This document shows, piece by piece, positions 8,221 through 59,198 of a stretch of DNA of 64,000 nt; position 1 is the first letter of the stretch; each line of letters opens with the position of its first letter. The position numbers and the translations under genes are program-made. Source of the stretch: Prevotella sp. UBA4217 (GTDB taxonomy: Bacteria; Bacteroidota; Bacteroidia; Bacteroidales; Bacteroidaceae); NCBI GenBank assembly GCA_002379425.1, contig DFTH01000014.1, forward strand, positions 547 to 64,546, given 5' to 3'. The notes under the pieces are model-generated. The model made no database searches. It was not told the DNA's origin and saw only the letters and a list, made by a program, of their open reading frames with translations.

Positions 8221-9261
8221 ATGAAGAGAATAGAGAAGAAAGATATCTGGTTGTTCCTGGCGCAAGTAGGCATCTGGGCCTTGATGATCCTGGTGTTCCC
8301 ACTGGCGATGCTGATCAGTACGCGCAACTGGGAATCGGCCTCCACTTCCCTGTTGATGGTGTGGCAGTTGCTTAGAGCCCCGATGGTCATCTACTTTGCC
8401 AATTTCTACATCTTCGGCCCCTACCTGTTCTTCCACCAGAAATATTGGTTCTTTGCACTTTGCAACCTGGTCCTGATCACTGCCGTCAACTCCGGCTTCT
8501 TCTTCGGCTATTTCATGATGAAGGAGCATGTGCCCCAGATGTCGCCTAATGCCTGGATCGGCTTCTTCTCGGGGGCCTTTATGTTCTTCCTCCTCAACTG
8601 TGTCATGGCGGCCGTAGCCATCGGTATCCGCCACTTCATCCGCACCCGTAAGATCAAGGATCAACTGAAGGAGGAGAAAGCGAAGAATACGGAGGCAGAA
8701 CTGGCATGGCTGAAAAACCAGATCAACCCCCATTTCCTCTTTAATACATTGAACAACATCTCCAGTCTGACGCAGATCGATCCCGATGCCGCTCAGGATG
8801 CCATCGCCCAACTCTCCGACCTGCTGCGCTATGCGATGTACGAGACTAACAAGCCTACGGTACCTATCCAGGGCGAGGTGGAGTTCATGCGCAACTATAT
8901 CTCGCTGATGGAACTGCGCTGTAACGACAAGACTGAGGTAAGTTCAGAGTTCAGGGTTCAGAGTTCAAAGTTAGAGATTGCCCCCCTGCTCTTCATCTCG
9001 CTCATCGAGAATGCCTTCAAGCACGGTATCAGCAGTAGCCGACCCTCGAAGATCGATATCCGTGTGTTACAGGAGGACAACCAACTGATCTTCGTCTGCG
9101 ACAACACCAATTTCCCCAAGGATGATGCCGACCGCAGTGGCTCTGGTATCGGTCTGGAGAATACCCGCCGGCGCCTGGACCTGATGTATGCTGGCCGCTA
9201 CACCTGGGAACAATCGCTCAATGACGATATATATCACGTTAAAATCACCCTTACACCATGA
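8221..9261 (+). CDS. LytS/YehU-type sensor histidine kinase
   Basis: The protein has 346 residues from the ATG at 8221; a TTG nine bases earlier lies inside the promoter. Four hydrophobic segments (about 11-33, 48-70, 77-98, 112-136) are followed by a short coiled coil and the His_kinase domain. The NPHFLFNTLNNI motif carries the phosphoacceptor His171, and ENAFKHG (263-269) and GSGIGLENTRRR form the ATP-binding site. No periplasmic sensor domain is seen. Between these motifs (codons 241-252) is a tandem heptanucleotide repeat that reads as SSEFRVQSSKLE. The stop overlaps the next start (ATGA), so kinase and regulator are translationally coupled. Confidence 0.93.
   Translation: MKRIEKKDIWLFLAQVGIWALMILVFPLAMLISTRNWESASTSLLMVWQLLRAPMVIYFANFYIFGPYLFFHQKYWFFALCNLVLITAVNSGFFFGYFMMKEHVPQMSPNAWIGFFSGAFMFFLLNCVMAAVAIGIRHFIRTRKIKDQLKEEKAKNTEAELAWLKNQINPHFLFNTLNNISSLTQIDPDAAQDAIAQLSDLLRYAMYETNKPTVPIQGEVEFMRNYISLMELRCNDKTEVSSEFRVQSSKLEIAPLLFISLIENAFKHGISSSRPSKIDIRVLQEDNQLIFVCDNTNFPKDDADRSGSGIGLENTRRRLDLMYAGRYTWEQSLNDDIYHVKITLTP
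8941..8975 (+). repeat. Heptanucleotide tandem repeat inside the kinase gene (5 units)
   Basis: Units of 7 nt: agttcag, agttcag, ggttcag, agttcaa, agttaga. They lie in the linker before the ATP-binding N box. Related 7-nt arrays occur at 10974, 12823, 33280, 35935 and 59157. Confidence 0.85.
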
Positions 9262-10028
9262 TCCTCACTTGTATCATCGTCGATGACGAGCCACTGGCCG
9301 TCCGCCTACTGGAGTCGTTTGTCAACAAGACGCCCGACCTCCAGTTGCTGGGTTCCTTTACCGACTCCGTGGAGGCCATCAATGCCATCAGGGAACAGAA
9401 GCCCAACCTGCTCTTCCTCGATATCCAGATGCCCGACCTCAACGGGATGGAACTGGCCCACATGCTCCCCGAGGGCACGAAGGTCATCTTCACCACAGCC
9501 TTCAAGGAGTATGCCTATGAGAGTTATGAGGTCAGCGCCCTCGACTTCCTGTTGAAGCCCATCCGCTATAATAAGTTCATCACTGCCGTGGAGAAGGCTC
9601 GTGAATGGTTCGATTTGGAGAATCGGGGGGGACGCGGAGGTACGGAGGCACGGGAGCACGAGGATATATCTGCCAGCATGACAAGCCCCGCACCTTCGAC
9701 CATTTTCCTCAAGGTCGATGGCGAATACCGCCAAGTAGCGCTCGACAAGATTCTCTATGTGGCAGGGATGAAGGATTACGTGATGTTCTATCTTGAAGAC
9801 CAGAAGCGGCCGCTCGTCACTCACCTGACGATGAAATCGGTGGAGGACATGCTGCCCACCTCACAGTTCATGCGCGTACACCGCTCCTATATCGTTGCCC
9901 TCGACAAGATCCGTAGTGTCGATCGCAACGACTGTATCTATATCGGTGAGGAGATTATCCGCGTCACAGAGGCCTTCCGCGATAAGTTCATACAGTACCT
10001 GAACTCGAAGTTCCCTGGCGGCAAGTAG
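9258..10028 (+). CDS. LytTR-family response regulator
   Basis: The protein has 256 residues. The receiver domain (1-118) has the acidic pair D9-D10, phosphoacceptor Asp55 (LLFLDIQMP), the conserved Thr in FTTAF and Lys in LKPI. The LytTR DNA-binding domain (about 155-250) contains FLKVDGEYRQV and FMRVHRSYIV. The linker holds a Gly/Arg/Glu stretch from a tandem repeat at 9627-9661. It overlaps the kinase gene by 4 bp. LytTR proteins bind paired direct repeats; the pair at 5526-5560 is a good candidate target. Its stop is 1 bp from the convergent EamA stop. Confidence 0.93.
   Translation: MILTCIIVDDEPLAVRLLESFVNKTPDLQLLGSFTDSVEAINAIREQKPNLLFLDIQMPDLNGMELAHMLPEGTKVIFTTAFKEYAYESYEVSALDFLLKPIRYNKFITAVEKAREWFDLENRGGRGGTEAREHEDISASMTSPAPSTIFLKVDGEYRQVALDKILYVAGMKDYVMFYLEDQKRPLVTHLTMKSVEDMLPTSQFMRVHRSYIVALDKIRSVDRNDCIYIGEEIIRVTEAFRDKFIQYLNSKFPGGK
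9627..9661 (+). repeat. Degenerate tandem repeat in the regulator linker
   Basis: An approximately 8-nt unit recurs (gcggaggt, acggaggc, acgggagc, acgagg) between the receiver and LytTR domains, encoding a Gly/Arg/Glu-rich linker. Its period differs from the 7-nt arrays elsewhere. Confidence 0.6.
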
Positions 10029-10029
10029 G

Positions 10030-10947
10030 TTATCCGAGGAAGAACAGGGACACGCCAATCACGGAGATGACAGCACCCACGACGGCTTTCCACGTGATCT
10101 TCTGGTGGAACAGCCAGTAGGAGGGCAGGATGATGATGATCGGGGTGAGTGCCATCAGCGTCGAGGCGATGCCCGCCTCCGTATATTGCACGGCCATCAA
10201 GGAGAAGCCCACCCCCACAAACGGCCCGAAGATGGTAGTTGCCGTGGCGACGGTCAAGCCTTTCTTGTCGTGCAGTGCCTCTCGCAATGGAGTCAGTCCC
10301 TCGCGTACATATAGTAAGATACCGAAGCCGACGATACCAGCCACACAACGGAAGAAATTGGCACTGAAGGGCACCAGCCATTCTGGCATGGTGCCCGTCG
10401 GATAGTGGTCCATGCCTATCTTGCTCAGTACCAGTCCGATACCTTGGCATAGTGCTGCGGCGACAGCATAGAGCACACCGTTGAGCGGCAGTTTCAGCGA
10501 CACCTTGTGGTGTTCTCCTCGTCCGAGTACGGAGATCGATATGCCAACGAGCGTCACGAGCATTGCCAGGATGCTCATGGGGTTCATCTCCTGCCCCAGC
10601 GTCATCCACGCCATGATGGCAGCGGCTGGCGGGGCGAGCGTCATGAACAGTTGGCCGTAACGCGAGCCGATGATGATATAGCACTGGAACAGACAGAAGT
10701 CACCGATCACATAGCCCACCAGTCCTGAGAGCAGCATCCAGCCGTAGGCCTCCATCGTACCACCGGCAGGCAGGGGCGAGCCCATCACCACCCAGAACAT
10801 CAGCATCGCGAAAAGCAGGGCTAAGCCCATACGCAGCACGTTGAGCGTCAGGTTGCCCAGACGCTTGCTGCCAAACTCACTCAGCAGGGCAGTCGCCGTC
10901 CAAGAGAAAGCCACGCCAATGGAAATCAGTTCGCCTAGATAGTTCAT
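10030..10947 (-). CDS. EamA/DMT-superfamily transporter
   Basis: The protein has 305 residues and about ten hydrophobic helices in two similar halves (about 1-145 and 155-300), the drug/metabolite transporter fold. Typical motifs are the N-terminal GVAFSWTATALLSEFGSKR and PPAAAIMAWMTLGQE in helix 4-5. The substrate cannot be told. The stop abuts the convergent LytTR gene, with no room for a terminator. It diverges from the MscS gene. Confidence 0.88.
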   Translation of the reverse strand: MNYLGELISIGVAFSWTATALLSEFGSKRLGNLTLNVLRMGLALLFAMLMFWVVMGSPLPAGGTMEAYGWMLLSGLVGYVIGDFCLFQCYIIIGSRYGQLFMTLAPPAAAIMAWMTLGQEMNPMSILAMLVTLVGISISVLGRGEHHKVSLKLPLNGVLYAVAAALCQGIGLVLSKIGMDHYPTGTMPEWLVPFSANFFRCVAGIVGFGILLYVREGLTPLREALHDKKGLTVATATTIFGPFVGVGFSLMAVQYTEAGIASTLMALTPIIIILPSYWLFHQKITWKAVVGAVISVIGVSLFFLG

Positions 10948-10955
10948 ACAGCCTG

Positions 10956-10963
10956 CAAAATTA
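10956..10963 (-). promoter_or_regulatory. Promoter -7 element for the EamA gene
   Basis: On the minus strand this reads TAATTTTG, 8 bp before the ATG at 10947. Confidence 0.6.
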
Positions 10964-10973
10964 CAAAAAATCT

Positions 10974-11001
10974 GAATTAAGAATTAAGAATTATGAATTA
11001 T
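10974..11001 (+). repeat. Heptanucleotide tandem repeat between two divergent promoters (4 units)
   Basis: Units: gaattaa, gaattaa, gaattat, gaattat. The array fills the space between the EamA promoter (10956-10963, minus) and the MscS promoter (11006-11013, plus), where both -33 elements would lie. Confidence 0.85.
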
Positions 11002-11005
11002 TTCG

Positions 11006-11013
11006 TATCTTTG
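11006..11013 (+). promoter_or_regulatory. Promoter -7 element for the MscS gene
   Basis: TATCTTTG, 26 bp before the ATG at 11040. Confidence 0.7.
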
Positions 11014-11039
11014 TAGCCGAATTACTAATCTGACCAGAC

Positions 11040-12776
11040 ATGAGACAACTCTTTTTCTCCCTTTTGCTGCTTGGAAGTATATTCACTGGCAGTGCCTTGC
11101 CACAGGCGGACCAGCCTGCGAGCGTCGTCGTGCCCGACTCCGTGCAGATGCTGGTCGATTCCCTGATCCGGGAACTACAGGAGGCGAAGATCCACGAACT
11201 CTCCATGCGCGATAAACTCGATGCCAGTGGGCAGACGGCCTACGAGGACTCTGTCAGGAAGGCTCTCCAGCGACAGCGTATCGACTCCCTCCGTCGTATC
11301 ACGCCGGGCGTGCCTCTGGTGATTGAGGGCGACACTCTCTTCTATATCTATGCCAGCCTGGGCGGTGAGGACCCCACGCATCGCGTGCTGTCTGCCACCC
11401 GTAGGATCACGAGCATCGGCAAGAGCCTGCGACTGGCTCCTTCCGACACCCTCCATGTCTTTGAGAGTGAATATACGGCCGACATCATGTGCGGGGAAAA
11501 CGTGCTGCTGCGCGTAAGCGACCTCGACGGCCTGTGGAACAGTCTCTCCCGCGAGGCCTTGGCACAGGAGCGGATGGGCATCATCAATGCGGAGATCCAG
11601 AAACTCCAGTCGCACTATGGCATGCAGGCCAAACTGCACGGCTTCGGCTGGGCAGTCTCCGTCATCATCATCCAGATTATCTTCTTCCTGCTCACTGCCT
11701 GGTTTATCCGCCATCTGCGGCAGAAGATCAGATGGGGCGCGGGCGGCAGGATCCGTCCGCTGGTCATGAAGGACTACGAACTGCTGAGTCTCCGCCAGGT
11801 GAAGCGGATACTGCTGTTCCTGACGCGCGTGCTACAGGTGGTGCTCGTCATCATCCAACTTATCATCTCCCTACCCCTGCTCTTCAGTATCTTCCCTGAG
11901 ACGGAGAAGTTCACGTGGCAGATGATCAACTACGTGTGGGAGCCGCTGCGCGACATTGCCATCGCCATCTTCCACTATATCCCCAACCTGGTGAGGATCA
12001 TCGTGGTCATCCTCCTGGTGCGCTGGATTCTGAAAGGTCTGCGCCATATCACCGACGCCATTGCCTCAGGAAGCCTGAAGTTTGATAAGTTCTATCAGGA
12101 CTGGGCGGAGCCCACCTATCAGATTATCCGCATCTTTATCATCACCTTCACACTGGTGGTCATCTGGCCGTGGCTGCCTGGTTCCGACACGGGAATCTTC
12201 AAGGGCGTAAGCATCTTCGTGGCTGCCCTCTTCTCACTGGGATCGACGACCACCGTGGGCAACCTGATCTCAGGCATTATCATCACCTATATGCGCCCCT
12301 TCATCGTGGGCGACTACGTGCGCATCGGCGAGCGCGAGGGTGAAGTGGTCGAGAAAAATGCCTTCATCACCCGTCTGAAGGATATCAAGGGCAATCTCAT
12401 CACGGTGCCCAACAACTCCATCCTCTCGCAGCAGACCGTCAATTATACGGCAGCCCTGCGCCATGGTGAGGGATCCATCGTGCACTCCGACTTCACCTTT
12501 ACCTATAAGGTGCCACGCGCCACCATCGAGACCTATCTGCTCGAAGGAGCCGCCCGCTGTCAGTTGCTGCTGAAGGAGCCCAAGCCCTTCGTGCTCGTCA
12601 CGGCACTCGAGGATTTCTATACGCGCTATGAGATCAACGCCTATACGAAGGAGACGGAGCGCCTCTTCGAGGTGTATTCCGAATTACACAAGAACATCAT
12701 CGACGTGTTCCGCGAGCATGACCTCGACCCGACCTCGTCGCACTTCGTCAAGATGGAGGAAATCAATAAAGAATAA
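11040..12776 (+). CDS. MscS-family mechanosensitive channel with a periplasmic N-terminal domain
   Basis: The protein has 578 residues: signal peptide (1-19), a polar periplasmic region (about 20-200), then about five membrane helices from residue 205. The last is the Gly/Ala/Ser-rich pore helix and beta domain typical of MscS (FVAALFSLGSTTTVGNLISG, then RPFIVGDYVRIGEREGEVVE). The periplasmic extension and extra helices make it a larger MscS-like protein than the E. coli minimal channel. It probably releases solutes on osmotic downshock. The CE2 esterase gene starts 4 bp after its stop, so they are probably co-transcribed. Confidence 0.92.
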   Translation: MRQLFFSLLLLGSIFTGSALPQADQPASVVVPDSVQMLVDSLIRELQEAKIHELSMRDKLDASGQTAYEDSVRKALQRQRIDSLRRITPGVPLVIEGDTLFYIYASLGGEDPTHRVLSATRRITSIGKSLRLAPSDTLHVFESEYTADIMCGENVLLRVSDLDGLWNSLSREALAQERMGIINAEIQKLQSHYGMQAKLHGFGWAVSVIIIQIIFFLLTAWFIRHLRQKIRWGAGGRIRPLVMKDYELLSLRQVKRILLFLTRVLQVVLVIIQLIISLPLLFSIFPETEKFTWQMINYVWEPLRDIAIAIFHYIPNLVRIIVVILLVRWILKGLRHITDAIASGSLKFDKFYQDWAEPTYQIIRIFIITFTLVVIWPWLPGSDTGIFKGVSIFVAALFSLGSTTTVGNLISGIIITYMRPFIVGDYVRIGEREGEVVEKNAFITRLKDIKGNLITVPNNSILSQQTVNYTAALRHGEGSIVHSDFTFTYKVPRATIETYLLEGAARCQLLLKEPKPFVLVTALEDFYTRYEINAYTKETERLFEVYSELHKNIIDVFREHDLDPTSSHFVKMEEINKE

Positions 12777-12780
12777 GAAT

Positions 12781-13929
12781 ATGAAAAAGTACCATTTCAT
12801 CGCTACACTACTGGCGCTCTTGACTATCCACTGCCCACTATCCACTGCCTCTGCCACAGAGACTATCCCCATCCGTGGTACTGTCGTCAGTCCCACCGAC
12901 CCGCATATCCAATATGCTGGCCGTATCAGTTTCGCCAATCCTGAGCGCCCGGCGTGGAACTTCCCTGGCATCCAGATCATGGCGGCCTTCGAGGGTACGT
13001 CGCTCAAGATGATCGCCAAGCCGAAAAGCGGCTATTTCATGGCGCAGATCGATCAGGCCAAGCCGTTCAAGGTGGCCTTCACCAGCGAGAAGGACTCTAT
13101 CGTCACACTTGCCACCGCCCTCTCCGACGGCCGTCACCTCGTCCGCCTGATGTATGCCATCGAGGGCTACGAGTACTATCCCGAGTTCTGGGGCTTTGTA
13201 CTCGACAAGGGGCGCCGGCTCATCGATGGTCCGTCGTTCCCTGGCAGGAAACTCGAATTCATCGGCAACTCCATCACCTGTGGCTACGGCAACGAAGGCA
13301 CGAACAAGGAAGAGCATTTCGACTATGCCACGGAGAACCACTACTATTCCTATGCCGCCATCACCGCCCGCAACCTGGAGGCACAGCACTGGGTGTGCGC
13401 CCGCAGTGGCATCGGGGCCTATCGCAACTACGGAGAGTCCAAGACGGGCTCTCCCAAGAACAATATCCAGGTACAATACGAATATACGGGCTATGCCCTG
13501 TCGCCGGAACTGCGCCAGAAGACTGGTTTCGATTCGATGAAATGGGACTTCTCGCGCTATCAGCCCGATGCCGTCTGCATCAATCTCGGCACGAACGACC
13601 TCTCCACGAACAACTACGATACGAAGTTGCTGAAACAAGGCTATCAATCGCTGCTGAAGATGGTGCGCCAGCACAACCCGCAGGCGAAGATCGTGTTCCT
13701 CTGCGGCTCGATGCTTGGCGACAAGGAACTGGAAATTGCCAAGCAGATTCTCAACGAAGTGGCTGCCGAAGCCAACAAGGCTGGCGACAAGGAGGTCTAT
13801 CGCTTCGACTTCACCCCGCAGAACGGAGACCTTGGCTATGGCAATGACTATCACCCCAGCCTTTGGCAGCACGAGAAGATGGCTGCCGAACTCACAGCCT
13901 ATCTTCGCGCGCTGATGCAGTGGTTCTGA
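12781..13929 (+). CDS. Carbohydrate esterase family 2-like SGNH hydrolase (acetylxylan-esterase type)
   Basis: The protein has 382 residues. The ATG at 12781 is chosen because it follows the MscS stop and begins a signal peptide (MKKYHFIATLLALLTIHC); the frame is open upstream only as an overlap with MscS. A jelly-roll N domain (about 30-140) is followed by an SGNH domain: GNSITCGYG with Ser164, NLGTNDL, and the Asp/His pair in DYHPS (356-358). This two-domain layout is CE2, which deacetylates xylan or other sugars. The signal-peptide cleavage region is made by a 7-nt tandem repeat (12823-12850). Confidence 0.88.
   Translation: MKKYHFIATLLALLTIHCPLSTASATETIPIRGTVVSPTDPHIQYAGRISFANPERPAWNFPGIQIMAAFEGTSLKMIAKPKSGYFMAQIDQAKPFKVAFTSEKDSIVTLATALSDGRHLVRLMYAIEGYEYYPEFWGFVLDKGRRLIDGPSFPGRKLEFIGNSITCGYGNEGTNKEEHFDYATENHYYSYAAITARNLEAQHWVCARSGIGAYRNYGESKTGSPKNNIQVQYEYTGYALSPELRQKTGFDSMKWDFSRYQPDAVCINLGTNDLSTNNYDTKLLKQGYQSLLKMVRQHNPQAKIVFLCGSMLGDKELEIAKQILNEVAAEANKAGDKEVYRFDFTPQNGDLGYGNDYHPSLWQHEKMAAELTAYLRALMQWF
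12823..12850 (+). repeat. Heptanucleotide tandem repeat in the CE2 signal peptide (4 units)
   Basis: Units: actatcc, actgccc, actatcc, actgcct. They encode the region around HCPLSTAS, close to the likely cleavage site. Confidence 0.85.
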
Positions 13930-13932
13930 TGA

Positions 13933-15207: not shown

Positions 15208-15320
15208 ATTGCATACATTTTAGAGTTCTTTCTACAGATAGAACTCCAGCAGGACTGAATCCTTGTATGACATTCGGGAACTTTAACCTAATTTAACACT
15301 TCCTCGCCAGAGCATGCGTC
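15208..15320. other. Spacer between VWA lipoprotein and dusB
   Basis: It contains a 7-bp inverted repeat, GAGTTCT (15223-15229) and AGAACTC (15240-15246), in the VWA leader. No TAnnTTTG promoter or other gene is seen. Confidence 0.4.
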
Positions 15321-16430: not shown

Positions 16431-16580
16431 GAATAAGTGGCATCCTGTGACTAATAAGTGCCTACTTTCTGGAAATAAGTGGCTCTTTACGCTGCTAAAA
16501 TGCCTCCTCTCGTGGCTAAAGAGGCTCTTTTCGCGGCTAAAGAGCCTCCTAATTCTGGTCCCAGGCCTTGGGATAAGCGC
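16431..16580 (+). repeat. Degenerate 21-nt-period array, copy A1
   Basis: About seven units of 20-22 nt follow each other, for example gctaaagaggctcttttcgcg (16515-16535) and taataagtgcctactttctgg (16452-16472). Shared features are a run of A, then a GCCT/GGCT core, a T-rich or C-rich part and CGYGG/CTGG. The array ends at the near-palindrome TCCCAGGCCTTGGGA (16559-16573). Related arrays lie at 28200-28440 and 52060-52290. Confidence 0.8.
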
Positions 16581-16847: not shown

Positions 16848-18143
16848 ATGGAGCAACTACTGCATTATGTCTGGAGGCATAGGCTGTTCCCCCTGCGGGA
16901 ACTCAAGACGAGCGACGGTGATACCGTCGAGGTGATCGATTCGGGACTGCACAATCGCAACGCGGGCCCCGACTTCTTCAATGCGAAGGTCAGGATAGGC
17001 CGCACGCTGTGGGTGGGCAACGTGGAGATCCACGACAAGTCAAGCGACTGGTATCTGCATGGCCACGACAAGGACCCGCGCTACAATAATGTGATCCTCC
17101 ACGTGGCGAGCGTGCTCGATGCGGAGGTGATGAACACTAACGGTGAATTCATCCGACAGATGCAACTCGACGTGCCCGAGCCGATCAGGGAGAACTACGC
17201 CGAACTGCTGAAGACAGACTGTTACCCGCCCTGCTACAAGGTCATCCCAGAACTGACGCGGCTGCTGGTACATTCGTGGATGGCTGCCCTTCAGACGGAA
17301 CGGCTGGAGCAGAAGACGGAGGCCATCCGCCGACGGGCAGAACAGACAGGCGGCTCGTGGGAAGGGGCCTATTTCGTGACCCTCGCCCGCAACTATGGCT
17401 TCGGCATCAATGGCGACGTGTTTGAACAGTGGGCGCAGAACATCCCGCTCTCGGCAGTGGCCCACCATCGCGACGACCTGTTCCAGATAGAGGCCGTCTT
17501 CATGGGACAGGCAGGACTGCTCGAACTGGAGGCCGTGCCAGCGTACTACCAGAAGGAGGCGCTCAACGAGGGCTACTTCGCCAAACTGCGCAACGAATAC
17601 CTCTATCTGGCCCATAAGTTCTCGATGAAACCGATCGATTTCCACCTGTGGCGCTTCCTCCGGCTCCGTCCGCAGAACTTCCCGCATATCCGCATCTCCC
17701 AGTTGGCCAACCTCTACTACCAGCAGAAGGCCGGACTGAGCCAACTCGTGGCCTGCGAGACCATCGAACAGTTGAAGGAACTGCTCTCCTCGCACGTCAC
17801 GCCCTACTGGGAGACCCACTATACGTTCGGCTCCACCAGTTCGAAGAACGAGAAGCACCTGGCATACGGCTCGCTGAACCTGCTGATGATCAATACGGCC
17901 ATCCCCATGCTCTTCGCCTACGGGCGGCATCGCTCGAAGGAGGTGCTCTGCGATCGTGCCTTCGACCTCCTGGAACAGTTGAAGGCGGAGAACAACCATA
18001 TCATCCGCATGTGGCAACAGGTAGGACTGCCCGTGGAGACGGCTGGCGACTCCCAGGCACTCATCCAACTCAAGAAAGAATACTGCGACAAGAAGGAGTG
18101 CCTCCGCTGTCGCTTTGGCTATGAATATCTTAAACGCAAATAA
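16848..18143 (+). CDS. DUF2851 family protein
   Basis: The protein has 431 residues with no signal peptide or membrane helix, so it is probably cytoplasmic. The start MEQLLHYVWRHRLFPLRELK and the NAGPDFFNAKVRIG / VGNVEIHDKSSDW block (about 40-70) are the DUF2851 hallmarks. These conserved Asp/Glu/His/Lys residues resemble a nuclease-like active site, though I know of no proven activity. The C-terminus has four clustered cysteines (about 402-412: C-x4-C-x2-C pattern around CDKKECLRCRFGY). dprA begins 1 bp after its stop, so it is likely linked to DNA uptake or processing through a shared transcript. Confidence 0.9.
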   Translation: MEQLLHYVWRHRLFPLRELKTSDGDTVEVIDSGLHNRNAGPDFFNAKVRIGRTLWVGNVEIHDKSSDWYLHGHDKDPRYNNVILHVASVLDAEVMNTNGEFIRQMQLDVPEPIRENYAELLKTDCYPPCYKVIPELTRLLVHSWMAALQTERLEQKTEAIRRRAEQTGGSWEGAYFVTLARNYGFGINGDVFEQWAQNIPLSAVAHHRDDLFQIEAVFMGQAGLLELEAVPAYYQKEALNEGYFAKLRNEYLYLAHKFSMKPIDFHLWRFLRLRPQNFPHIRISQLANLYYQQKAGLSQLVACETIEQLKELLSSHVTPYWETHYTFGSTSSKNEKHLAYGSLNLLMINTAIPMLFAYGRHRSKEVLCDRAFDLLEQLKAENNHIIRMWQQVGLPVETAGDSQALIQLKKEYCDKKECLRCRFGYEYLKRK

Positions 18144-28120: not shown

Positions 28121-28177
28121 GTGTCCTACCTGTCCTACCTGTCCACGGCGTGGGGGCAGATGGGACAGGTGGGACAC
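28121..28177 (+). repeat. Long inverted repeat, copy B1
   Basis: The left arm (28121-28144) is built of TGTCCTACC repeats and the right arm (28157-28177) of GGGACAGGTGGGACAC. The two pair along most of their length, with G-U pairs where left T meets right G. ATATTTTCTGG and then GACAACTA follow. A closely related, perfectly paired copy is at 52338-52406. It may act as a terminator for the yicC operon. Confidence 0.8.
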
Positions 28178-28199: not shown

Positions 28200-28440
28200 A
28201 TATTATAAGAGGCTATCTATCTCGGAAAAAGGCTCTCTTCCCGGAAAAGGAGGCACTTCCCTCCAGAAAAGAGCCTCTTTACGAACGTGAGGAGCCTCTT
28301 TAGAAACGCGAGGAGGCTCCTCACATTCGTAAAGTGCCTTCTCAGTTTGTTCCCAGGCCTTGGGAATTCAGAAAACAGCCTTCCTATTCAGGAAAAGTGC
28401 CTCTCGATGTCGCACCCGACTGTTCACCTGACAAATTCTC
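28200..28440 (+). repeat. Degenerate 21-nt-period array, copy A2
   Basis: About ten units of 17-26 nt, mostly 21 (for example aaaacagccttcctattcagg at 28375-28395 and aaaagtgcctctcgatgtcgc next to it), include the near-palindrome TCCCAGGCCTTGGGA (28351-28365). From about 28265 onward it aligns closely with copy A3 at 52120-52290. It fills the spacer between the yicC operon and the convergent GH36 gene. Confidence 0.82.
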
Positions 28441-33070: not shown

Positions 33071-33886
33071 ATGTACAACGGAACGATACAACTGACGAAC
33101 CTCAGCATAGGCTACCAGACGAAACATGGCGTGAAATTGGTGGCCGAAGGTATCAACGGGTCGATCCACAGTGGTGAACTGACATGCCTGTTGGGAGCCA
33201 ATGGCGTCGGGAAATCGACGTTGCTGCGCACGCTATCTGCCTTTCAGCCAAAGATGGCAGGGAAGATCGTACTCATAGAGGAGAAAGGAGAAAGGAGAGA
33301 GGAGAAAGATATCTCTGACTATACTGACAAGGAACTGAGCCGGAGGATTGGAGTGGTACTGACGGAGAAGCCTGATGTCAGGAATATGTCGGTACGCGAA
33401 CTGGTCAGCCTGGGCCGTTCTCCCTATACGGGCTTCTGGGGCACTTACTCGAAAGAAGACCTGCTCGTGGTGGATGAGGCCATCGCCCAGGTGGGCATTG
33501 AGGCCTTGAGCCAGCGGATGGTACATACGCTGAGCGATGGCGAGCGACAGAAGGTGATGATAGCCAAGGCACTGGCACAACAGACTCCCGTGATATACCT
33601 CGACGAGCCGACGGCCTTCCTCGACTATCCCAGTAAGGTGGAAGTACTACAGTTACTCCGCCGCATCAGTCGTGAGGCGGGAAAGACCATCTTCCTCTCT
33701 ACCCATGACGTAGAACTGGCCCTTCAATTGGCTGACACCATCTGGCTGATGAACCGGGGAGAGAATGTGATCATCGGTTCACCGAGACAACTGGCCCAAG
33801 AGGGTGCTCTCGGCCGATTCATCGAGCGTGAGGGTATCACCTTCGATCCTGAGACACTGGCTATCAAGATTATCTGTAATAACTAA
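33071..33886 (+). CDS. btuD: ABC transporter ATPase (BtuD/FecE type), probable cobalamin importer subunit
   Basis: The protein has 271 residues. Walker A is LGANGVGKST (41-50), the signature LSDGERQ (154-160), Walker B VIYLDEP (174-180), and the switch His lies in STHDVE. It belongs to the iron/B12 importer ATPases. The neighbouring cob genes indicate corrinoids, and its permease is probably BtuC at 48.2 kb, which has no ATPase beside it. Codons 70-79 (EEKGERREEK) are made by a 7-nt tandem repeat and look inserted before the usual DISDYTDKELSRRIGVV. Symbol inferred from context. Confidence 0.85.
   Translation: MYNGTIQLTNLSIGYQTKHGVKLVAEGINGSIHSGELTCLLGANGVGKSTLLRTLSAFQPKMAGKIVLIEEKGERREEKDISDYTDKELSRRIGVVLTEKPDVRNMSVRELVSLGRSPYTGFWGTYSKEDLLVVDEAIAQVGIEALSQRMVHTLSDGERQKVMIAKALAQQTPVIYLDEPTAFLDYPSKVEVLQLLRRISREAGKTIFLSTHDVELALQLADTIWLMNRGENVIIGSPRQLAQEGALGRFIEREGITFDPETLAIKIICNN
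33280..33307 (+). repeat. Heptanucleotide tandem repeat in the ATPase gene (4 units)
   Basis: Units: ggagaaa, ggagaaa, ggagaga, ggagaaa. They encode a Glu/Arg/Lys stretch in the surface beta-region after Walker A. Confidence 0.88.
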
Positions 33887-35728: not shown

Positions 35729-36666
35729 ACAGTGCTATAGCCCTGGTTGTCGGATGGCTGCTCGACCTTGTCTTTGGCGACCCTGCAAGGATGCCACATC
35801 CGATTGTATGGTTCGGACGGATGATTGCCTTTGGGGAGCATCACCTAAACCACGGGGCGTATCGCAAACTGAAGGGAGCCCTGCTGGCCGTCGGCCTGAT
35901 ACTGTCGGTCTTTGTCCTGACATGGTTCCTCCGCTCTCAAATCTCAACTCTCATCCCTCAACTATTGCTCGCGTTCGATGCCATTATCATCTTCTATTGT
36001 CTGGCAGGCACGACCCTGATCCGCGAAGTGCGCGAGGTATTCCTGGCGCTCGACCGATCACTCGATGAAGGCAGGAGGCAGGTGGCGAGGATCGTGGGTC
36101 GCGACACGTCGGAACTCTCTGCCCTGGAGGTGCGGAAGGCAGCCTTGGAGACGCTGGCGGAGAATCTGAGCGACGGGGTCATCGCCCCACTCTTCTGGCT
36201 GGCACTGTTAGGTACCCCGGGGATGCTGGCCTATAAGATGGTGAACACGCTCGACTCGATGATCGGCTATCATACGGAGCGATACAAAAACTTCGGCTGT
36301 TGGGCCGCCCGTATCGACGACGTGGCCAACTATCTCCCCGCCCGTCTGACGGCTCTGTTGATGGTGCTCTCTTCTGGCAGACTGAGCCTCTTGCGCTTCG
36401 TAAAGAAGTACGGCCGCTGCCATGCCAGTCCCAACAGTGGTTATCCCGAGGCCGCCCTGGCGGGTATCCTCGACTGCCGGTTCGGTGGTCCCCACTACTA
36501 TTTCGGCGAACGCTTCGACAAGCCCTTCATCGGTGAGAACGACCGTGAACTCTCAACGGCCGACATGAAGACAGCCGTCCGCATCAATCGGACGGCCGAG
36601 GTATTGATGGTCGCCTTGGTGATTATCATCCAACTTTGCATCATTGGATTAAAGATAGTACATTGA
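35725..36666 (+). CDS. cbiB: Adenosylcobinamide-phosphate synthase
   Basis: The protein has 313 residues. The N-terminal DLVFGDPARMPHPIVWFGRMI and the RDTSEL / ALETLAENLSDGVIAPLFW block (about 130-155) are CbiB hallmarks. It attaches aminopropanol phosphate, the product of the decarboxylase two genes upstream, to the corrin ring. A 7-nt tandem repeat (35935-35962) encodes RSQISTLIPQ in a loop between hydrophobic segments. cobU and cobT, needed for a full nucleotide loop, are not in view. Confidence 0.94.
   Translation: MNSAIALVVGWLLDLVFGDPARMPHPIVWFGRMIAFGEHHLNHGAYRKLKGALLAVGLILSVFVLTWFLRSQISTLIPQLLLAFDAIIIFYCLAGTTLIREVREVFLALDRSLDEGRRQVARIVGRDTSELSALEVRKAALETLAENLSDGVIAPLFWLALLGTPGMLAYKMVNTLDSMIGYHTERYKNFGCWAARIDDVANYLPARLTALLMVLSSGRLSLLRFVKKYGRCHASPNSGYPEAALAGILDCRFGGPHYYFGERFDKPFIGENDRELSTADMKTAVRINRTAEVLMVALVIIIQLCIIGLKIVH
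35935..35962 (+). repeat. Heptanucleotide tandem repeat in cbiB (4 units)
   Basis: Units: tctcaaa, tctcaac, tctcatc, cctcaac, in frame within the coding sequence. Confidence 0.82.
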
Positions 36667-52003: not shown

Positions 52004-52059
52004 ACCGGAAGAACGGTGCGCCACGCGCGCGGGCGCACTCACAGGATTAAGGCTACTAC
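52004..52059. other. Spacer after the AAA gene with GC-rich hairpin
   Basis: GTGCGCC (52016-52022) and GGCGCAC (52032-52038) form a 7-bp stem without a T-run. The repeat array A3 follows. Confidence 0.4.
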
Positions 52060-52290
52060 ACTATGAAAAGGCTCTCTCCTTTCGGAAAAAGAGTTACTTT
52101 TCGCGAAATAAGAGGCTCTTTACGAAAATGAGGAGCCTCTTTACGAACGTGAGGAGCCTCCTCAGTTCCGTAAAGTGCCTTCTCATTCTGGTCCCAGGCC
52201 TTGGGAATTCAGAAAACAGCCTTCCTGTTCAGGAAAAGTGCCTCTCTATGCCGCACCTGACCATTCACCTGACGAAATCTCTACATGCGC
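52060..52290 (+). repeat. Degenerate 21-nt-period array, copy A3
   Basis: About ten units of 19-25 nt run from about 52060, for example aaaacagccttcctgttcagg and aaaagtgcctctctatgccgc (52210-52251). They include the shared TCCCAGGCCTTGGGA (52193-52207). It aligns with copy A2 over about 170 bp and more loosely with A1. Confidence 0.82.
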
Positions 52291-52337
52291 GCACATACGC
52301 CCGCGCATATATTATAGTTGCCATACCCACTTTTTAT

Positions 52338-52415
52338 GTGTCCCACCTGTCCCATCTGTCCCTGGTGGGAACTATCCTTCTTGGACAGATGGGACAGGTG
52401 GGACACTTGTTTTTG
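52338..52415 (+). repeat. Perfect 24-bp inverted repeat with T-run, copy B2
   Basis: Left arm 52338-52361 and right arm 52383-52406 are exact reverse complements over 24 bp around a 21-nt loop. They are built from TGTCCCACC/TGTCCCATC units. TTGTTTTTGG follows, so it can act as a strong terminator for the AAA gene. Copy B1 is at 28121-28177. The GACAACTA motif follows both copies. Confidence 0.88.
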
Positions 52416-52504
52416 GCTTGAGACAACTACTACGCCTGCGCACGCGAAGGGACCACTCTATTCATTTTTGTGAACGGAAAAGCGTAAATTCAAAGATTTA
52501 TTCG

Positions 52505-52512
52505 TATTTTTG
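52505..52512 (+). promoter_or_regulatory. Promoter -7 element for the phosphatase gene
   Basis: TATTTTTG, 30 bp before the ATG at 52543. Confidence 0.65.
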
Positions 52513-52542
52513 CAGTCTGGAACCAATAAAACCAAGCGTATC

Positions 52543-53856: not shown

Positions 53857-53873
53857 GGTCTGGGGGCGAAGGC

Positions 53874-54695: not shown

Positions 54696-56662
54696 TTCGT
54701 TTTGATATTAATCTTATCCTTGTTATACTCTATTCCTAAGTCCTTCGCACGCTTGGCATTGCGGTTCTGGAGTTTCTTCTTCTGGTCGCCCTTCTGCTTG
54801 GTGATGGAGGCGGGTTTCTGCCTGTAGCGCGGGATGGCGGTGAGGTCCCACGGCAGGGTGACGTCGAACTTCTCCTTACACTCTATCACGCGGTTGTAGA
54901 AATAGACATCCTCGGGCTGGCGGTCCTCGTCATAGTCGCCCGTGTCCCAGATAGCATTGCTGTTGGCATCCACGTAGGCACTGACGAAATACTTAGCGGG
55001 AGAGACATAGTCGAAATGGGCCGTGCCGCCTTTGGCCAGGACTTCCTTCACGATATTACCAGAGGCGTTGAGAAGTTGTACCCGCAATGGCAGTGTATCG
55101 GCAATACCGCTGAGATTAAGCGTCAGCGTACTGTATTCATCCAGCGACTTCACCTTGAGACCCTGCTTGTAGGCCTGGGACACCAGGCCGTGGATATCCT
55201 CGAAGGCCGCGGAGTCGATCTCCAGGCTATACTCTATGCCTGGCTGCCATTCCGCCAGGATCTCATAGCGCCGCAACTGATGGGCTACGGGCTGGAAGGT
55301 GAACGGTGCCTCGTACCATAGTGAATCGATCATCGAGTAGAGATGTACGGCCGACGTGTCGCAGCGCACCAGGGGCGCAGGCATCTCGATGGTCACCTTC
55401 TTATCGGGATCCATCTGGCTGGAGACATTATAGGTTGGCTTCAGAGGCGTCACAGGATAGATGGAGTCGTAGGGCTGCTCGCGCTTTTTCTTCTTCTCCT
55501 GCTCCTTCACCCATCTCTCTATCTCCTCTTCTTTCTGCTTCTGCCGCTTTTCGTACGACACCTTTGCCAAGGCCTCCAGCGTGTCGGTCTGGTTCACCAG
55601 GTTACCCAGCGTGTCGGTCATCATATAACTGATCTCCATGTGGAGGGTATCCTGGTTGACGAGCATCGAGTCGCGAAGCCAGTAGTGGATCGTGTCGCGC
55701 TTCTCATTAGCCTCAACGACAAACGCGCTGTCGGCATTGAAGTTAAGGCCTTTGATGACGGGCAGGAGGGAGTCGCCACAACTGAAGTACATGCTGAACT
55801 TGTCGGGCTCGCTGCGCTCCGTCTTCAGGAGGTAGCGCTCCGTCTGTATATGGGTAAATGCCAGGAGCGTGATGTCATCGGGCAGGAAGTGGGTATAGGG
55901 CGTCTGCCTGAACGCGTCGATATGCAGGGAGTCGCGCCAGATGGTATCGATCCTCACGTCGGGCTTGGAACTTGGCGTATATGTCTCATGGTTATAGGCA
56001 ATCATCTCACTCCTCTGCGAGAAACGGAAGTTGCCATCCATCTCCTGCAGGGCATAGACGCGGTAGGTGCCTGGGGCAATGCCCTTGATGACGAAGTGGC
56101 CGTGGCTGTCGGTCCTTGACACACGTATCATCGGCTTGGTCTTGAAGGCTGAGTCGGCCAGGTCGTCGTAAAGGCCTACCAGGATGCCCTTGATAGGCTC
56201 CAGGTTACTGGCATCGAGCACGTAGCCCGCCACCTCCATCGTGTCGATCTGCCCGCCCGTAGAGAAACTGTAGGTATAACTACCCAACGGATTGCCCTCG
56301 TTGTTATCACTGATGGCGTCGCTGAAGTCGATCGTGTAGGTCGTGTTCTCCTTCAGGGAGTCCTGCAGTTCCACCACGATCTTCCTGCCTGCAGCCTTGA
56401 TCTCAGGGACCTCCAACTGGGGCGGAGAGACGATCACCTTGCTCGTGGCATCCTCCAGTTTGATAAACTCATTGAAGAGGATGGTGATCTTCTTACTGCT
56501 GATATTGGTCGATTGGTCGGCCGGGTCGCTGCCGATGACCATGGGCGGATCATCGTCGAACCATCCGCCGTCGGGCTGTCCCATACGGGCACAACCTGCA
56601 ACTGTTGTTGCAATGATAAAATGAAAAAATGTAATAATTAAAAGATATTCTTTTCTTCTCAT
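54692..56662 (-). CDS. Big_5 (SbsA Ig-like) domain lipoprotein
   Basis: The protein has 656 residues. The signal peptide ends VAGC (Cys24). An Ig-like Big_5 domain (about 40-150) has PADQSTNISSKKITILFNEFIKL and NTTYTIDFSDAISDNNEGN. A carboxypeptidase-regulatory-like segment (about 155-215, GTYRVYALQEMDGNFRFS) follows. A Lys/Glu-rich coiled stretch (about 365-395) precedes further beta domains, and the tail is very basic. Such proteins are envelope-associated and of unknown role. It is second in the minus-strand operon GH3-like, Big_5, DUF3108. Confidence 0.85.
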   Translation of the reverse strand: MRRKEYLLIITFFHFIIATTVAGCARMGQPDGGWFDDDPPMVIGSDPADQSTNISSKKITILFNEFIKLEDATSKVIVSPPQLEVPEIKAAGRKIVVELQDSLKENTTYTIDFSDAISDNNEGNPLGSYTYSFSTGGQIDTMEVAGYVLDASNLEPIKGILVGLYDDLADSAFKTKPMIRVSRTDSHGHFVIKGIAPGTYRVYALQEMDGNFRFSQRSEMIAYNHETYTPSSKPDVRIDTIWRDSLHIDAFRQTPYTHFLPDDITLLAFTHIQTERYLLKTERSEPDKFSMYFSCGDSLLPVIKGLNFNADSAFVVEANEKRDTIHYWLRDSMLVNQDTLHMEISYMMTDTLGNLVNQTDTLEALAKVSYEKRQKQKEEEIERWVKEQEKKKKREQPYDSIYPVTPLKPTYNVSSQMDPDKKVTIEMPAPLVRCDTSAVHLYSMIDSLWYEAPFTFQPVAHQLRRYEILAEWQPGIEYSLEIDSAAFEDIHGLVSQAYKQGLKVKSLDEYSTLTLNLSGIADTLPLRVQLLNASGNIVKEVLAKGGTAHFDYVSPAKYFVSAYVDANSNAIWDTGDYDEDRQPEDVYFYNRVIECKEKFDVTLPWDLTAIPRYRQKPASITKQKGDQKKKLQNRNAKRAKDLGIEYNKDKINIKTK

Positions 56663-56672
56663 CCTTGCATTT

Positions 56673-58178
56673 TTACATTTTTATATTGAGTTTCAGCAAT
56701 TGCTCTATCGTCTCTCTGCTGTTGCTCAGGCGCGGGATCTTATGCTGGCCACCCAACTTACCGTGCATCTTCAGCCAGTCGTTGAAGAGGTTGGGACGCG
56801 CCTCGATGATCTCCAGATGCTGGAGCGTGATGTCCTTATAGCGCTTGGCCTCATAGTCGCTGTTGATCTCCTGCAGGCGCTTGTCGAGCAATGAGGCGAA
56901 CTGCTGCATGTCGGCAGGGCGCTTGACAAACTCAATGAGCCACTGATGGCGGCACTTGGCATTGGCATCCATGAACACGGGGGCTGCCGTATATTCGCTC
57001 ACCTCGGCACCCGTCTGCTCACAGGCATAGGCCAGTCCCTGTTCGGCATTATCGACGATCAGTTCCTCGCCAAAGGCGTTGATGAAGTGCTTGGTGCGCC
57101 CGCTGATGATGAACTTATAGGGATTGGTAGATGTGAACTGCACGGTGTCTCCTATCTCATAGCGCCAGAGGCCGCAGGAGGTAGAGATCACCATCGCATA
57201 GTTCTTACCCGTCTCCACCGCCCACAGGGGGATGGGCTCACTATCCTTATCATCCATGGGGATGAACTCGTAGAACACGCCGTAGTCGAGCATCAGCAGC
57301 ATCGACTTGTCGGCAGGATCATCCTGGATGCCGAAGAAGCCCTCACTGGCGTTGTAGGTCTCCATGTAGTGCATGCGCGGCGAGGTGATGAGGCGCTTGT
57401 ACTGTTCGCGGTAAGGCGTGAAGGCCACGCCACCGTGGAAGAACACCTCAATGTTGGGCCATACCTCTTCCAGGTGCGTCTTGCCCGACAGTTCCATCAT
57501 GCAGGTCAGCACAGAGAGCATCCATGAGGGCACGCCCGAGATATTCGTCACATTCTTGTGCATCGCCTCCTCGGCTATCCGCTCGCGCTTTACCTCGAAG
57601 TCGGAGAGCAGGGCCGTCTGCTTCTTGGGCACACGGACAAGGTTAGCCAACGGATTGATGTTCTCGATGAGGATAGCCGAGAGGTCGCCCACCAGGGAGT
57701 CTCTCAGGTTATAATTAGGTGCATGACTGCCGCCAAGGATCAGGGCCCTGCCGTCAAAGAGGCGCGACTGCGGGTTGTTACGCAGGTAAATGGCAACAGA
57801 GTCGAAGCCTCCTGCATAATGGATGTCCTGCAGGCCATCCTTGCTGACGGGGATGAACTTCGACTTGTCGTTGGTGGTTCCCGACGACTTAGCATACCAT
57901 TTCACCCGTCCCGGCCAGAGGATATCCATCTCTCCCTGACGCATACGGTCGATGTCGCCCTTCAGTTCCTCATACGTGTTGACAGGGACATGGTCGATAA
58001 AGTCGTCATACCCCTTGATGCTCTGAAAGGCATGGTTCCGCCCGTATTCCGTGTCCCTTGCCTTACTTAACAATTGGTCGAGCACCGCTCTTTGAAGTGC
58101 CTCCCCCCCATACTGGTACTTCTCCAAAGCACGCTGACGGGGAACGAATATTTTCCTTACGAATTGGGTCAGACTCAT
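56673..58178 (-). CDS. GH3 auxin-responsive-promoter family protein (acyl-adenylate/amide synthetase fold)
   Basis: The protein has 501 residues from the ATG at 58178; a TTG 12 bp upstream is less likely. The ATP-binding YAKSSGTTNDKSKFIPVS (about 92-109), YNASEGFFGIQDD, and the C-terminal RTKHFINAFGEELIVDNAEQGL are the conserved GH3 blocks. Plant GH3 enzymes join amino acids to hormones; bacterial members are widespread in Bacteroidota without known substrate. It leads an operon with the Big_5 lipoprotein 10 bp downstream. Confidence 0.93.
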   Translation of the reverse strand: MSLTQFVRKIFVPRQRALEKYQYGGEALQRAVLDQLLSKARDTEYGRNHAFQSIKGYDDFIDHVPVNTYEELKGDIDRMRQGEMDILWPGRVKWYAKSSGTTNDKSKFIPVSKDGLQDIHYAGGFDSVAIYLRNNPQSRLFDGRALILGGSHAPNYNLRDSLVGDLSAILIENINPLANLVRVPKKQTALLSDFEVKRERIAEEAMHKNVTNISGVPSWMLSVLTCMMELSGKTHLEEVWPNIEVFFHGGVAFTPYREQYKRLITSPRMHYMETYNASEGFFGIQDDPADKSMLLMLDYGVFYEFIPMDDKDSEPIPLWAVETGKNYAMVISTSCGLWRYEIGDTVQFTSTNPYKFIISGRTKHFINAFGEELIVDNAEQGLAYACEQTGAEVSEYTAAPVFMDANAKCRHQWLIEFVKRPADMQQFASLLDKRLQEINSDYEAKRYKDITLQHLEIIEARPNLFNDWLKMHGKLGGQHKIPRLSNSRETIEQLLKLNIKM

Positions 58179-58198
58179 TTTAATGCGCAATTTGGGTG

Positions 58199-58206
58199 CA
58201 AAATTA
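58199..58206 (-). promoter_or_regulatory. Promoter -7 element for the GH3-type operon
   Basis: On the minus strand this reads TAATTTTG, 20 bp before the ATG at 58178. Confidence 0.6.
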
Positions 58207-58282
58207 CGCTAAACTTTCGTAAGGAGGGAAGATTTTACGTTTTTTTTATATAATAAGGCCTAAAGACAACAGTAACCGACAA

Positions 58283-58696
58283 CTATGACTGCATGGCCAG
58301 AGCCTTATTCTCTGCGGCTTCCATGATCTCGCGCTCGCCAGGGCCCTTGTCGTTGATGCCGCAGAGATGGAGGATGCCATGGATAATCACGCGATGGAGT
58401 TCCTCGTCGTAGGGACGACCGAACTGCTGGGCATTGCTGGAGACGGTATCGAGCGAGATGACGATATCGCCGTTGAGCGTATCGCCTTCCGTGTAGTCGA
58501 AGGTGATAATATCGGTATAGTAGTCGTGACCCAGATACTCGTTGTTCACCTCAAGGATCTTGCCGTCGTTGACGAACAGATAGCCGATTTCACCGATCTT
58601 CTTACCGTATGACTCTGCCACGCGACGGATCCAGTTGGTCGTCTCGCGCTTCTTGATATTGGGGAACTTGACCCCTTCTGCACTGTATGAAATCAT
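58283..58696 (-). CDS. ybeY: rRNA maturation endoribonuclease YbeY
   Basis: The protein has 137 residues from the ATG at 58696 (MISYSAEGVKFPNIKKRET). The frame is open further upstream only as a shadow of coaD. The family blocks LEVNNEYLGHDYYTDIITFDY and GDIVISLD are followed by HRVIIHGILHLCGINDKGPGE. Two metal-binding His are kept (HGILH), but the usual third His is replaced in GINDK, a change I recall as common in Bacteroidota YbeY. It matures 16S rRNA 3' ends. It is the last gene of the ruvB-coaD-ybeY operon. Confidence 0.92.
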   Translation of the reverse strand: MISYSAEGVKFPNIKKRETTNWIRRVAESYGKKIGEIGYLFVNDGKILEVNNEYLGHDYYTDIITFDYTEGDTLNGDIVISLDTVSSNAQQFGRPYDEELHRVIIHGILHLCGINDKGPGEREIMEAAENKALAMQS

Positions 58697-58703
58697 AAAC
58701 CTC

Positions 58704-59156
58704 TTATTTCTTTTTGGGAAGATAGGGCGTGACATCCACACCGAAGTGGGCCAGTTCGCGCAGGGCGCTCGATGAGATGCTGACCAGTTCGGGCTCGGTA
58801 TAGAGAAGGATGGTCTCGATACCGCCCAGGCGACGGTTGAAGTCGGCCTGCCACTGCTCGTACTCGAAATCACTGGCATTGCGCACACCCTTGACGATGA
58901 AATGGGCATTTTCCGCCTTAGCAAAGTCCATGGCCAGTCCGTGGTAGGGCTTTACCTCAATACGCTCCTCACTGGCATAGAGGTCGCGAATCACCTGCAT
59001 CCGCTCTTCGGCAGAAGGCATGTCGGGCTTATGCACGTTATCCCCCACCACACCGATCACCAGACGGTCGAACAGCGGCAGGGCGCGGCGCACGATAGAA
59101 TCGTGACCGATGGTAAAGGGATTGAAACTCCCTACAAATATCCCTGTTCTTATCAT
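58704..59156 (-). CDS. coaD: Phosphopantetheine adenylyltransferase
   Basis: The protein has 150 residues, slightly short of the usual 160. GSFNPFTIGH (9-18, the HxGH motif), GVRNASDFEYE and SISSSALREL are present. It makes dephospho-CoA from phosphopantetheine and ATP. The 37 bp between it and ruvB consist of a 7/14-nt tandem repeat. Confidence 0.96.
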   Translation of the reverse strand: MIRTGIFVGSFNPFTIGHDSIVRRALPLFDRLVIGVVGDNVHKPDMPSAEERMQVIRDLYASEERIEVKPYHGLAMDFAKAENAHFIVKGVRNASDFEYEQWQADFNRRLGGIETILLYTEPELVSISSSALRELAHFGVDVTPYLPKKK

Positions 59157-59198
59157 AACTATGAACTCTTAACTATGAACTCTTAACTATGAACTAAT
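59157..59198 (+). repeat. Heptanucleotide tandem repeat between coaD and ruvB (6 units)
   Basis: Units on the plus strand: aactatg, aactctt, aactatg, aactctt, aactatg, aactaat, a 14-nt repeat made of two heptamers. It fills the spacer and enters the last codons of ruvB. On the other strand it resembles the AGTTCA-type array in the kinase at 8941. Confidence 0.88.

Follow-up and report, generated by a model that had tools for sequence, protein, structure and literature searches.

Why should tandem repeats with a unit of seven nucleotides (nt) recur at unrelated places in one stretch of a bacterial chromosome, within genes as well as between them? The stretch in question, hereafter the window, comprises 64,000 nt of contig DFTH01000014.1 of Prevotella sp. 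UBA4217, a relative of rumen Prevotella whose draft genome amounts to 1.92 Mb in 17 contigs and is 58% complete. The CoaD protein encoded in the window is 95% identical to the CoaD of a Prevotella metagenome-assembled genome from roe deer, and strains of Xylanibacter ruminicola are among the next-best matches. Six short arrays had been noticed in the window, in genes and spacers. In related genomes and on plasmids, arrays of this kind are found on both sides of genes of the S23 family (23S_rRNA_IVP, PF05635), mostly as inverted repeats. The best explanation as a whole, which we hold tentatively and at somewhat less than an even chance, is that the arrays flanking S23 genes are the arms of small elements, that the solo arrays in the window form one class with them, and that the repeat period is tied to the gene carried between the arms. 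The link between the six solo arrays and S23-type elements is one that we infer.

S23 genes between matched arrays

In relatives of the present genome some arrays were paired as inverted repeats. Two species carry an S23 gene between such a pair, following ychF, and in a third species octamer arms flank an S23 gene between parE and the gene of an S41 peptidase. S23 genes were then gathered by profile or protein search, blind to repeats, and their flanks of 220 nt were compared, with cross-paired flanks of different loci and ordinary open reading frames (ORFs) serving as controls. The set from relatives contains 62 of the 84 PF05635 matches above the cut-off; the others were not taken, lay two to a stretch, or were close to a contig end (L229, L247, L248, L259, L260). 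The order-wide set started from 30 loci, the best of most genomes, with L164 already used and L426 skipped, so that 28 of 29 were scored. Of 25 plasmid records 22 were taken and 20 scored, and the near-duplicates L344, L349, L412 and L413 were removed for the final counts. The plasmid loci are mostly cyanobacterial, with one each from Treponema, Bernardetia, Monoglobus and Chlorohelix.

A terminal inverted repeat with a score of at least 20 surrounds the S23 gene at 48 of the 62 loci from relatives, 16 of the 18 plasmid loci and 22 of the 28 order-wide loci, which makes 86 of 108 in all. The same score was reached by 6-10% of the cross-paired flanks and by 4 of 318 and 3 of 398 ordinary ORFs. 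The plasmid loci below the threshold are L342 (18) and L348 (19), and those of Monoglobus and Chlorohelix score exactly 20. Arrays on both sides were found at 38 of the 62 S23 loci from relatives, as opposed to 12 of 318 and 9 of 398 ordinary ORFs; the Bernardetia plasmid locus has an array on one side only. Bacteroidales and plasmids of cyanobacteria show this architecture, as do single cases in Treponema and Chlorohelix. All elements that were inspected lie between protein-coding genes and not in 23S rRNA genes, namely between ychF and lgt, between parE and the S41 peptidase gene, between a glycosyltransferase gene and radC, and at the annotated plasmid loci.

The two arrays of a locus resemble each other closely. 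Left and right periods are equal in 40 of 40, 13 of 13 and 11 of 12 two-sided loci (64 of 65 in total), and 57 of these 65 pairs are inverted. In a set that overlaps the main ones and includes the near-duplicates L344, L349 and L412, the periods agree in 56 of 56 two-sided loci, where permutation gave a mean of 30 and a maximum of 39. When several S23 copies occur in one genome, the units differ between copies and mostly match between left and right. Unit numbers on the two sides are correlated as well (rho 0.52, n=64, near-duplicates removed), and at an orthologous plasmid locus both arms have 4.7 units in two Nostoc strains and 3.7 in a third. Folding predicted an arm-to-arm stem in all four examples tried, one of which (L108) was folded on the strand opposite its S23 gene. 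An S23 gene between inverted arms would accordingly sit in the loop of a predicted hairpin.

The same junction can be found in different states in different species; the presence of a gene between the arrays (cargo) was confirmed by tblastn, and short and array-only states were judged by eye. Depending on the species, the ychF-lgt gap is short, contains an array alone, or contains an array, a cargo gene and another array. The cargo is S23 in genomes G033 and G027, and in G006, G018 and G032 the arrays occur with a gene of the GxxExxY nuclease family (PDDEXK_3, PF13366), which occupies one of the same sites as S23. The gap between the glycosyltransferase gene and radC is short in 14 of 24 printed loci, carries S23 with arms in G000, G025 and G031, inverted 9-mer arrays without cargo in G004, and arrays alone in G008 and G019. 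Provided that the start of radC is predicted correctly, the right arm of the S23 element of the present genome (L180, 732-1466) would add an N-terminal extension to RadC. The right arm of the L108 element (3865-5457) is apparently translated as part of the signal peptide of the S41 peptidase. At the parE-S41 site of another species a DUF559 gene was recognised by Pfam (L098, 5553-5921), with CCCTCCC-type inverted repeats that extend into the N-terminus of the S41 peptidase. S23 genes were also seen to separate cas2 from cas1 and hsdS from hsdR, and to follow genes for DISARM or other helicases (L342 and L347 on Anabaena and Nostoc plasmids, and L333, L343, L344 and L412). Defence loci may be frequent landing sites of S23 genes.

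The period of the arrays depends on the cargo family. Inverted flanks surround the GxxExxY gene in 30 of 54 loci, compared with 3.8% of cross pairs (54 of 55 loci were scored, L455 being too short; L261, L272, L283, L284 and L285 were left out). A period of 7-8 nt was found in 148 of 160 S23 arrays and a period of 9-11 nt in 24 of 27 GxxExxY arrays, with a Fisher p-value of 2.5e-18 that counts both sides of a locus, which are not independent. Counted by two-sided locus, the numbers with 7-8 nt and with another period are 59 and 5 for S23, and 0 and 7 for GxxExxY (p-value of 6e-7). The idea that GxxExxY arrays are regularly inverted arms had to be dropped, as only 4 of the 7 two-sided loci are inverted and 3 are direct. 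For DUF559, where partial and contig-end matches were left out and 19 of 28 matches used, inverted flanks were found in 11 of the 19 loci (cross pairs 11%), and none of the 19 loci has a flanking array with a score of at least 10; this set is less clean, since 8 of the 19 matches lie in open frames of more than 300 amino acids.

The six arrays of the window and the period spectrum

All six arrays were recovered at the positions originally named, both by direct reading and with Tandem Repeats Finder (TRF). Five of them were read on the plus strand. About five units of AGTTCAG (8941-8976, also the TRF span) are located inside a LytS-type histidine kinase gene (8221-9261), directly after the His_kinase domain that Pfam places at residues 162-240 of the ORF from 8212. 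Four units of GAATTAA/GAATTAT (10974-11001; TRF 10974-11000) fill part of a spacer and end 4 nt before the sequence TATCTTTG (11006-11013, plus strand), a match to the -7 promoter consensus of Bacteroidota, TAnnTTTG, upstream of a gene for an MscS channel according to Pfam. The array ACTATCC ACTGCCC (12823-12850; TRF 12823-12849, where a 14-mer is preferred) lies in what is presumably the signal-peptide region of a gene for a CE2 esterase (12781-13929; CE2_N by Pfam), and about four units of AGGAGAA (33279-33308 in both readings) lie inside the gene of an ABC ATPase (33071-33886; ABC_tran by Pfam). A weak array of TCTCAAC (35935-35962; TRF 35935-35953) is found in a variable stretch of cbiB (CobD_Cbib by Pfam). 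The last array (59156-59196, also by TRF, as a perfect 14-mer with 2.9 copies) is on the minus strand, with coding-strand units AGTTCAT and AGTTAAG, and makes up the entire gap from the ruvB stop codon to the coaD start codon. In an ungapped period scan with a score threshold of 14, applied below unless another is given, the arrays at 8941, 10974 and 33279 pass at period 7 and that at 59156 at period 14, where random sequence from a fourth-order Markov model (Markov-4) gives an expectation of 0; those at 12823 and 35935 scored below 14.

The original prediction held that the units differ in sequence from one array to the next. Read by eye, five of the six have an AACTNTN-like core, the array at 33279 being the one whose unit lacks AACT. 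The units are also not random across sites, since three consecutive AACTNTN units gave 77 matches in the genome and the reversed pattern 10, overlapping registers being counted separately in both cases. AAYTATG was considered as a unit marking the genus and rejected, because three consecutive copies occur in 15 of 60 genomes, the present one included, and the reversed pattern in none. Across 198 genomes of the order the numbers are 23, again including the present genome, and 10. The occurrence of the reversed pattern in 10 of 198 genomes indicates that other heptamers are common too.

How far the period extends through the genome was measured in a 464-kb sample made up of the window and 20 stretches of 20 kb each. 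These stretches start at round coordinates on seven contigs known through AACTNTN-pattern matches, and 4 of the 20 contain such a match; a subset of 320 kb leaves out these four and the window. Genes in the sample were located with our own gene caller. The 464 kb contain 27 arrays of period 7, 13 of period 8 and 7 of period 9, with a Markov expectation of 0, and none of periods 3-6, 10 or 13. The multiples 14, 16, 21 and 24 are represented by 16, 11, 11 and 7 arrays, partly the same ones as at periods 7 and 8. The 320-kb subset has 12, 10 and 5 arrays of periods 7, 8 and 9 and none of periods 3-6 or 10, and 506 kb around 80 coaD loci of related genomes have 25, 11 and 3, with none of periods 3-6. 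When only coding sequence is considered, period 7 is represented by 8 arrays with a score of at least 12, and shuffling of synonymous codons leaves 0.1. These counts bear out a family of short tandem repeats across the genome in which period 7 clearly exceeds periods 3-6 and 10. They do not bear out a strict period, since the stretches lacking a known match have almost as many arrays of period 8 (10) as of period 7 (12); the excess of period 7 is clear over 5 and 6, and small or absent over 8.

Arrays with a score of at least 12 are mainly intergenic (24 of 32 at period 7 and 11 of 14 at period 8), even though 87% of the sampled sequence is coding, and those within genes are short and imperfect. 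Where arrays of the AAYT/ARTT type have a stop codon as their nearest gene boundary, ARTT faces outward for 17 of the 18 such arrays of this genome and for 12 of 14 in relatives; the left arm of S23 elements has the same polarity. Intergenic arrays lead within 22 nt into TAnnTTTG in 6 of 32 cases in this genome, the array at 10974-11001 among them, and in 8 of 29 cases in relatives, compared with 2.9% of the intergenic 22-nt windows of this genome (binomial p-values of 3e-4 and 1e-6, respectively). Many arrays in these polarity and box counts were picked by pattern, and the fractions are not genome-wide estimates.

A proposed step from element arms to solo arrays

According to the explanation that we favour, slippage would add and remove units in an arm, and paired arms would stay matched in sequence and length through the copying of one from the other across the hairpin. 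The period would probably depend on the cargo protein or its complex with nucleic acid rather than on the polymerase of the host. For the six solo arrays this would mean that they are orphan arms, left after the loss of cargo or partner arm, or else that the same array-building process produced them. What suggests a step from S23 arms to solo arrays is their shared periods, their common polarity after stop codons and shared sites. A more far-reaching version, which we consider doubtful, is that S23 and GxxExxY are both cargo of small hairpin elements whose protein or complex acts as a ruler, S23 setting 7-8 nt and GxxExxY 9-11 nt in tandem arms built and maintained by it, and that the heptamers dispersed over genomes with S23, the classic cyanobacterial ones included, are the footprints of such elements and not of polymerase slippage.

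Several observations weigh against extending the S23 architecture to the solo arrays. None of the six window arrays has an inverted partner above control within 1.5 kb, and whole-genome profile searches found no cargo gene at any of them: the two PF05635 matches and the single GxxExxY match of the genome lie elsewhere, and there was no DUF559 match. Neither S23 match falls within the 464-kb sample, in which only 1 of 32 arrays of period 7 and 0 of 14 of period 8 are paired, so that the notion of solo arrays as always paired is rejected for the 7- and 8-mers of this genome (among the 9-mer arrays 6 of 17 are paired). An array directly precedes coaD at 8 or more of the 80 coaD loci, and no S23 match was found in the ruvB-coaD gap of any of the 80 by tblastn, which can miss divergent S23 genes and missed that of G012; the single match among these loci, L108, is away from the gap. 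The ratio of period 7 to period 8 lends little support, as it is 27:13 for all solo arrays and 12:10 in the stretches without a known match, and 111:37 in S23 arms. Genomes poor in S23 are not clearly poor in arrays (9 per 283 kb versus 26 per 400 kb); G018 has 5 arrays in 33 kb and no S23. In ten relatives array density and S23 count are related in the expected direction, but the relation is loose and not clean. All 10 genomes having the AAYTATG unit and 17 of 30 lacking it carry S23 (p-value of 0.01), and among 198 genomes the link is weak (21 of 23 versus 128 of 175, p-value of 0.04), neither value being corrected for kinship; G071 has such arrays and no S23. There is no polarity rule beside start codons (6 versus 8 arrays in this genome, 9 versus 6 in relatives). 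Even among the two-sided S23 loci, 6 of 65 have direct arrays and 2 no clear orientation, and strains of Planktothrix differ by three units in the left arm but not in the length of the inverted right part.

The strongest competing view is that arrays grow in place by replication slippage, with a slip of 7-8 nt wherever the sequence is free to vary (in gene gaps, promoters, signal peptides and loops), and that S23 elements merely share in this process. We regard this as a plausible account that is itself somewhat less than probable in general, and for the solo arrays of the window as nearly as likely as an origin from elements. Slips of 7-8 nt, matching the stretch of DNA held by the polymerase, have been proposed in PMC4679880 and PMC4692102. 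The absence of cargo or partner at the window arrays agrees with growth in place. The ruvB-coaD gap speaks for it: some related species have units such as GGAGTGT, TTAGGGG, GAGTGAG, AAAAGGTG and AGTTTAC there, and others have no array. The units often include the ruvB stop codon, as read by eye, which favours growth in place. The idea that the array in cbiB is an insertion was not supported, since it occupies a variable loop that, in an alignment, shows no net gain of sequence over several relatives. What slippage does not predict is one unit family at dozens of sites in one genome, if the slips are independent. Furthermore, the period is 7-8 nt around S23 and 9-11 nt around GxxExxY within one order and is thus no constant of the host, so that slippage of the host polymerase alone cannot set it. 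The polymerase-footprint model predicts one period per host, and this difference is unexplained by it.

It appears improbable to us that the arrays are functional sites kept by selection, as multiple weak sites for protein binding or translation before start codons, or as the region upstream of the -7 box in transcription. Translational control has been proposed for TAACTGA arrays (PMC4679880), and the fixed polarity after stop codons and the frequency with which arrays lead into TAnnTTTG would fit such roles. However, orthologous gaps contain other units or none, the polarity may only reflect the avoidance of ATG in transcribed gaps, and many of the arrays behind both fractions were picked by pattern. 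Phase variation, in which gain or loss of units would switch genes on and off, seems more improbable still. Four of the six window arrays fall within genes, and a length of 7 nt is not divisible by 3, but the arrays are short and imperfect, most sampled ones are intergenic, and the one in the variable loop of cbiB brings no net insertion in comparison with several relatives. Chance or an assembly artefact, for which the incompleteness of the draft could be invoked, can be set aside: it is refuted by the counts, the expectation at period 7 being only 0 to 0.1, related genomes show the same pattern, and arrays flanking S23 also occur on complete plasmids.

Further repeats in this and other genomes

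Other repeats were seen in the window. TRF found two inverted 9-nt arrays at 28122-28176, TGTCCTACC and GGGACAG, which form a palindrome without cargo around a 9-nt loop; the partner score of 13 is above all 30 controls and below the flagging threshold of 14. A pair of the same family, TGTCCCACC and GGACAGATG, is located at 52339-52405 with a loop of 20 nt, and the family (TGTCCCACC / GGGACAGRT) recurs at L032 (17154-17220) and L038 (5388-5454). With loops of 9-20 nt these palindromes have no space for a gene; they are perhaps of a kind related to the S23-type arrays. Interspersed 21-nt modules such as GAGCCTCTTTACGNNNNTGAG form an intergenic repeat family at 16459-16550, 28210-28319 and 52076-52160, and a segment, TCCCAGGCCTTGGGAATTCAG, is common to positions around 28350 and 52195 beside these modules. 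Octamer runs, AATGAAAA at 56612-56643 and CATTTTTA at 56668-56687, resemble a small inverted pair in a gene gap, and L043 contains a long 9-nt array of about 8 CTAGGRNTA-like units (17626-17701).

Heptanucleotide repeats of Nostoc are known under the name STRR. The present arrays share with them the tandem 7-nt period and genome-wide occurrence, so that the likeness to cyanobacterial repeats claimed in the original prediction stands; as with STRR/LSSR-type repeats, there are many 7-nt loci above chance and above shorter periods, and these are mainly intergenic. A feature of the 7-nt arrays described here is their tie to S23 genes, including on plasmids of Nostoc, Planktothrix, Anabaena and other cyanobacteria. 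The view that Bacteroidota have no equivalent does not hold, because MacGregor (2015; PMC4679880) reports TAACTGA heptamer arrays in five Bacteroidetes. The TAACTGA repeats of Beggiatoaceae, cyanobacteria and these Bacteroidetes also consist of 7-nt units at many, mainly intergenic sites, often just before a start codon, and in some Bacteroidetes other heptamers lie close by. A survey cited in that paper finds heptanucleotides to be the commonest class in most genomes rich in repeats of 5-11 nt. The present repeats differ in that two consecutive TAACTGA units have no copy in the 464-kb sample, and a term search of PMC4679880 returned neither S23 nor four helix proteins. In Rehm (2015; PMC4692102), where heptanucleotide repeats of Calothrix are cited, GGGAATC heptamers of Xanthomonas and Nostoc are similarly intergenic, biased toward one neighbouring gene and variable in length among close relatives; they differ in that the unit forms a G-quadruplex. 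A term search for S23 in PMC4692102 was likewise negative.

The closest known parallel is the 23S rRNA intervening sequence (IVS) of Coxiella burnetii (Warrier 2016; PMC4990558). In this IVS, which RNase III excises, a terminal inverted repeat of 28 bp encloses an S23 ORF in its loop, and two or three heptamers, depending on the strain, are found just before the S23 start codon. It is an independent single case of a link between S23 and heptamers. The differences are that the IVS resides in a 23S rRNA gene and is cut out by RNase III, whereas those elements that were inspected here have protein-coding genes on both sides, and that here both arms are tandem arrays in most two-sided cases. A paper from 2023 (PMC10053308) reports that PF05635 resembles, by sequence and structure alignment, the accessory protein Avd of diversity-generating retroelements. 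No general statement of a link between S23 and arrays was found in a full-text literature search covering few subscription journals. Heptamer repeats as such are known, Bacteroidota included; S23 genes between such arrays are apparently new.

Heptanucleotide repeats of bacteria have been on record for decades, with slippage of the polymerase and control of translation as proposals and no agreed cause, and S23 is a widespread family of unknown function, annotated as a "four helix bundle" protein. Their association hints at a shared origin for a class of repeats that has so far been without one. The dependence of the period on the cargo, together with arms that co-vary in one set of strains, leads to a single question, namely whether the protein or its RNA sets the repeat. 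Even if only the part concerning S23 were true, it would describe a new architecture of a common small intergenic element, which in two cases, RadC and the S41 peptidase, appears to recode the start of the next gene.

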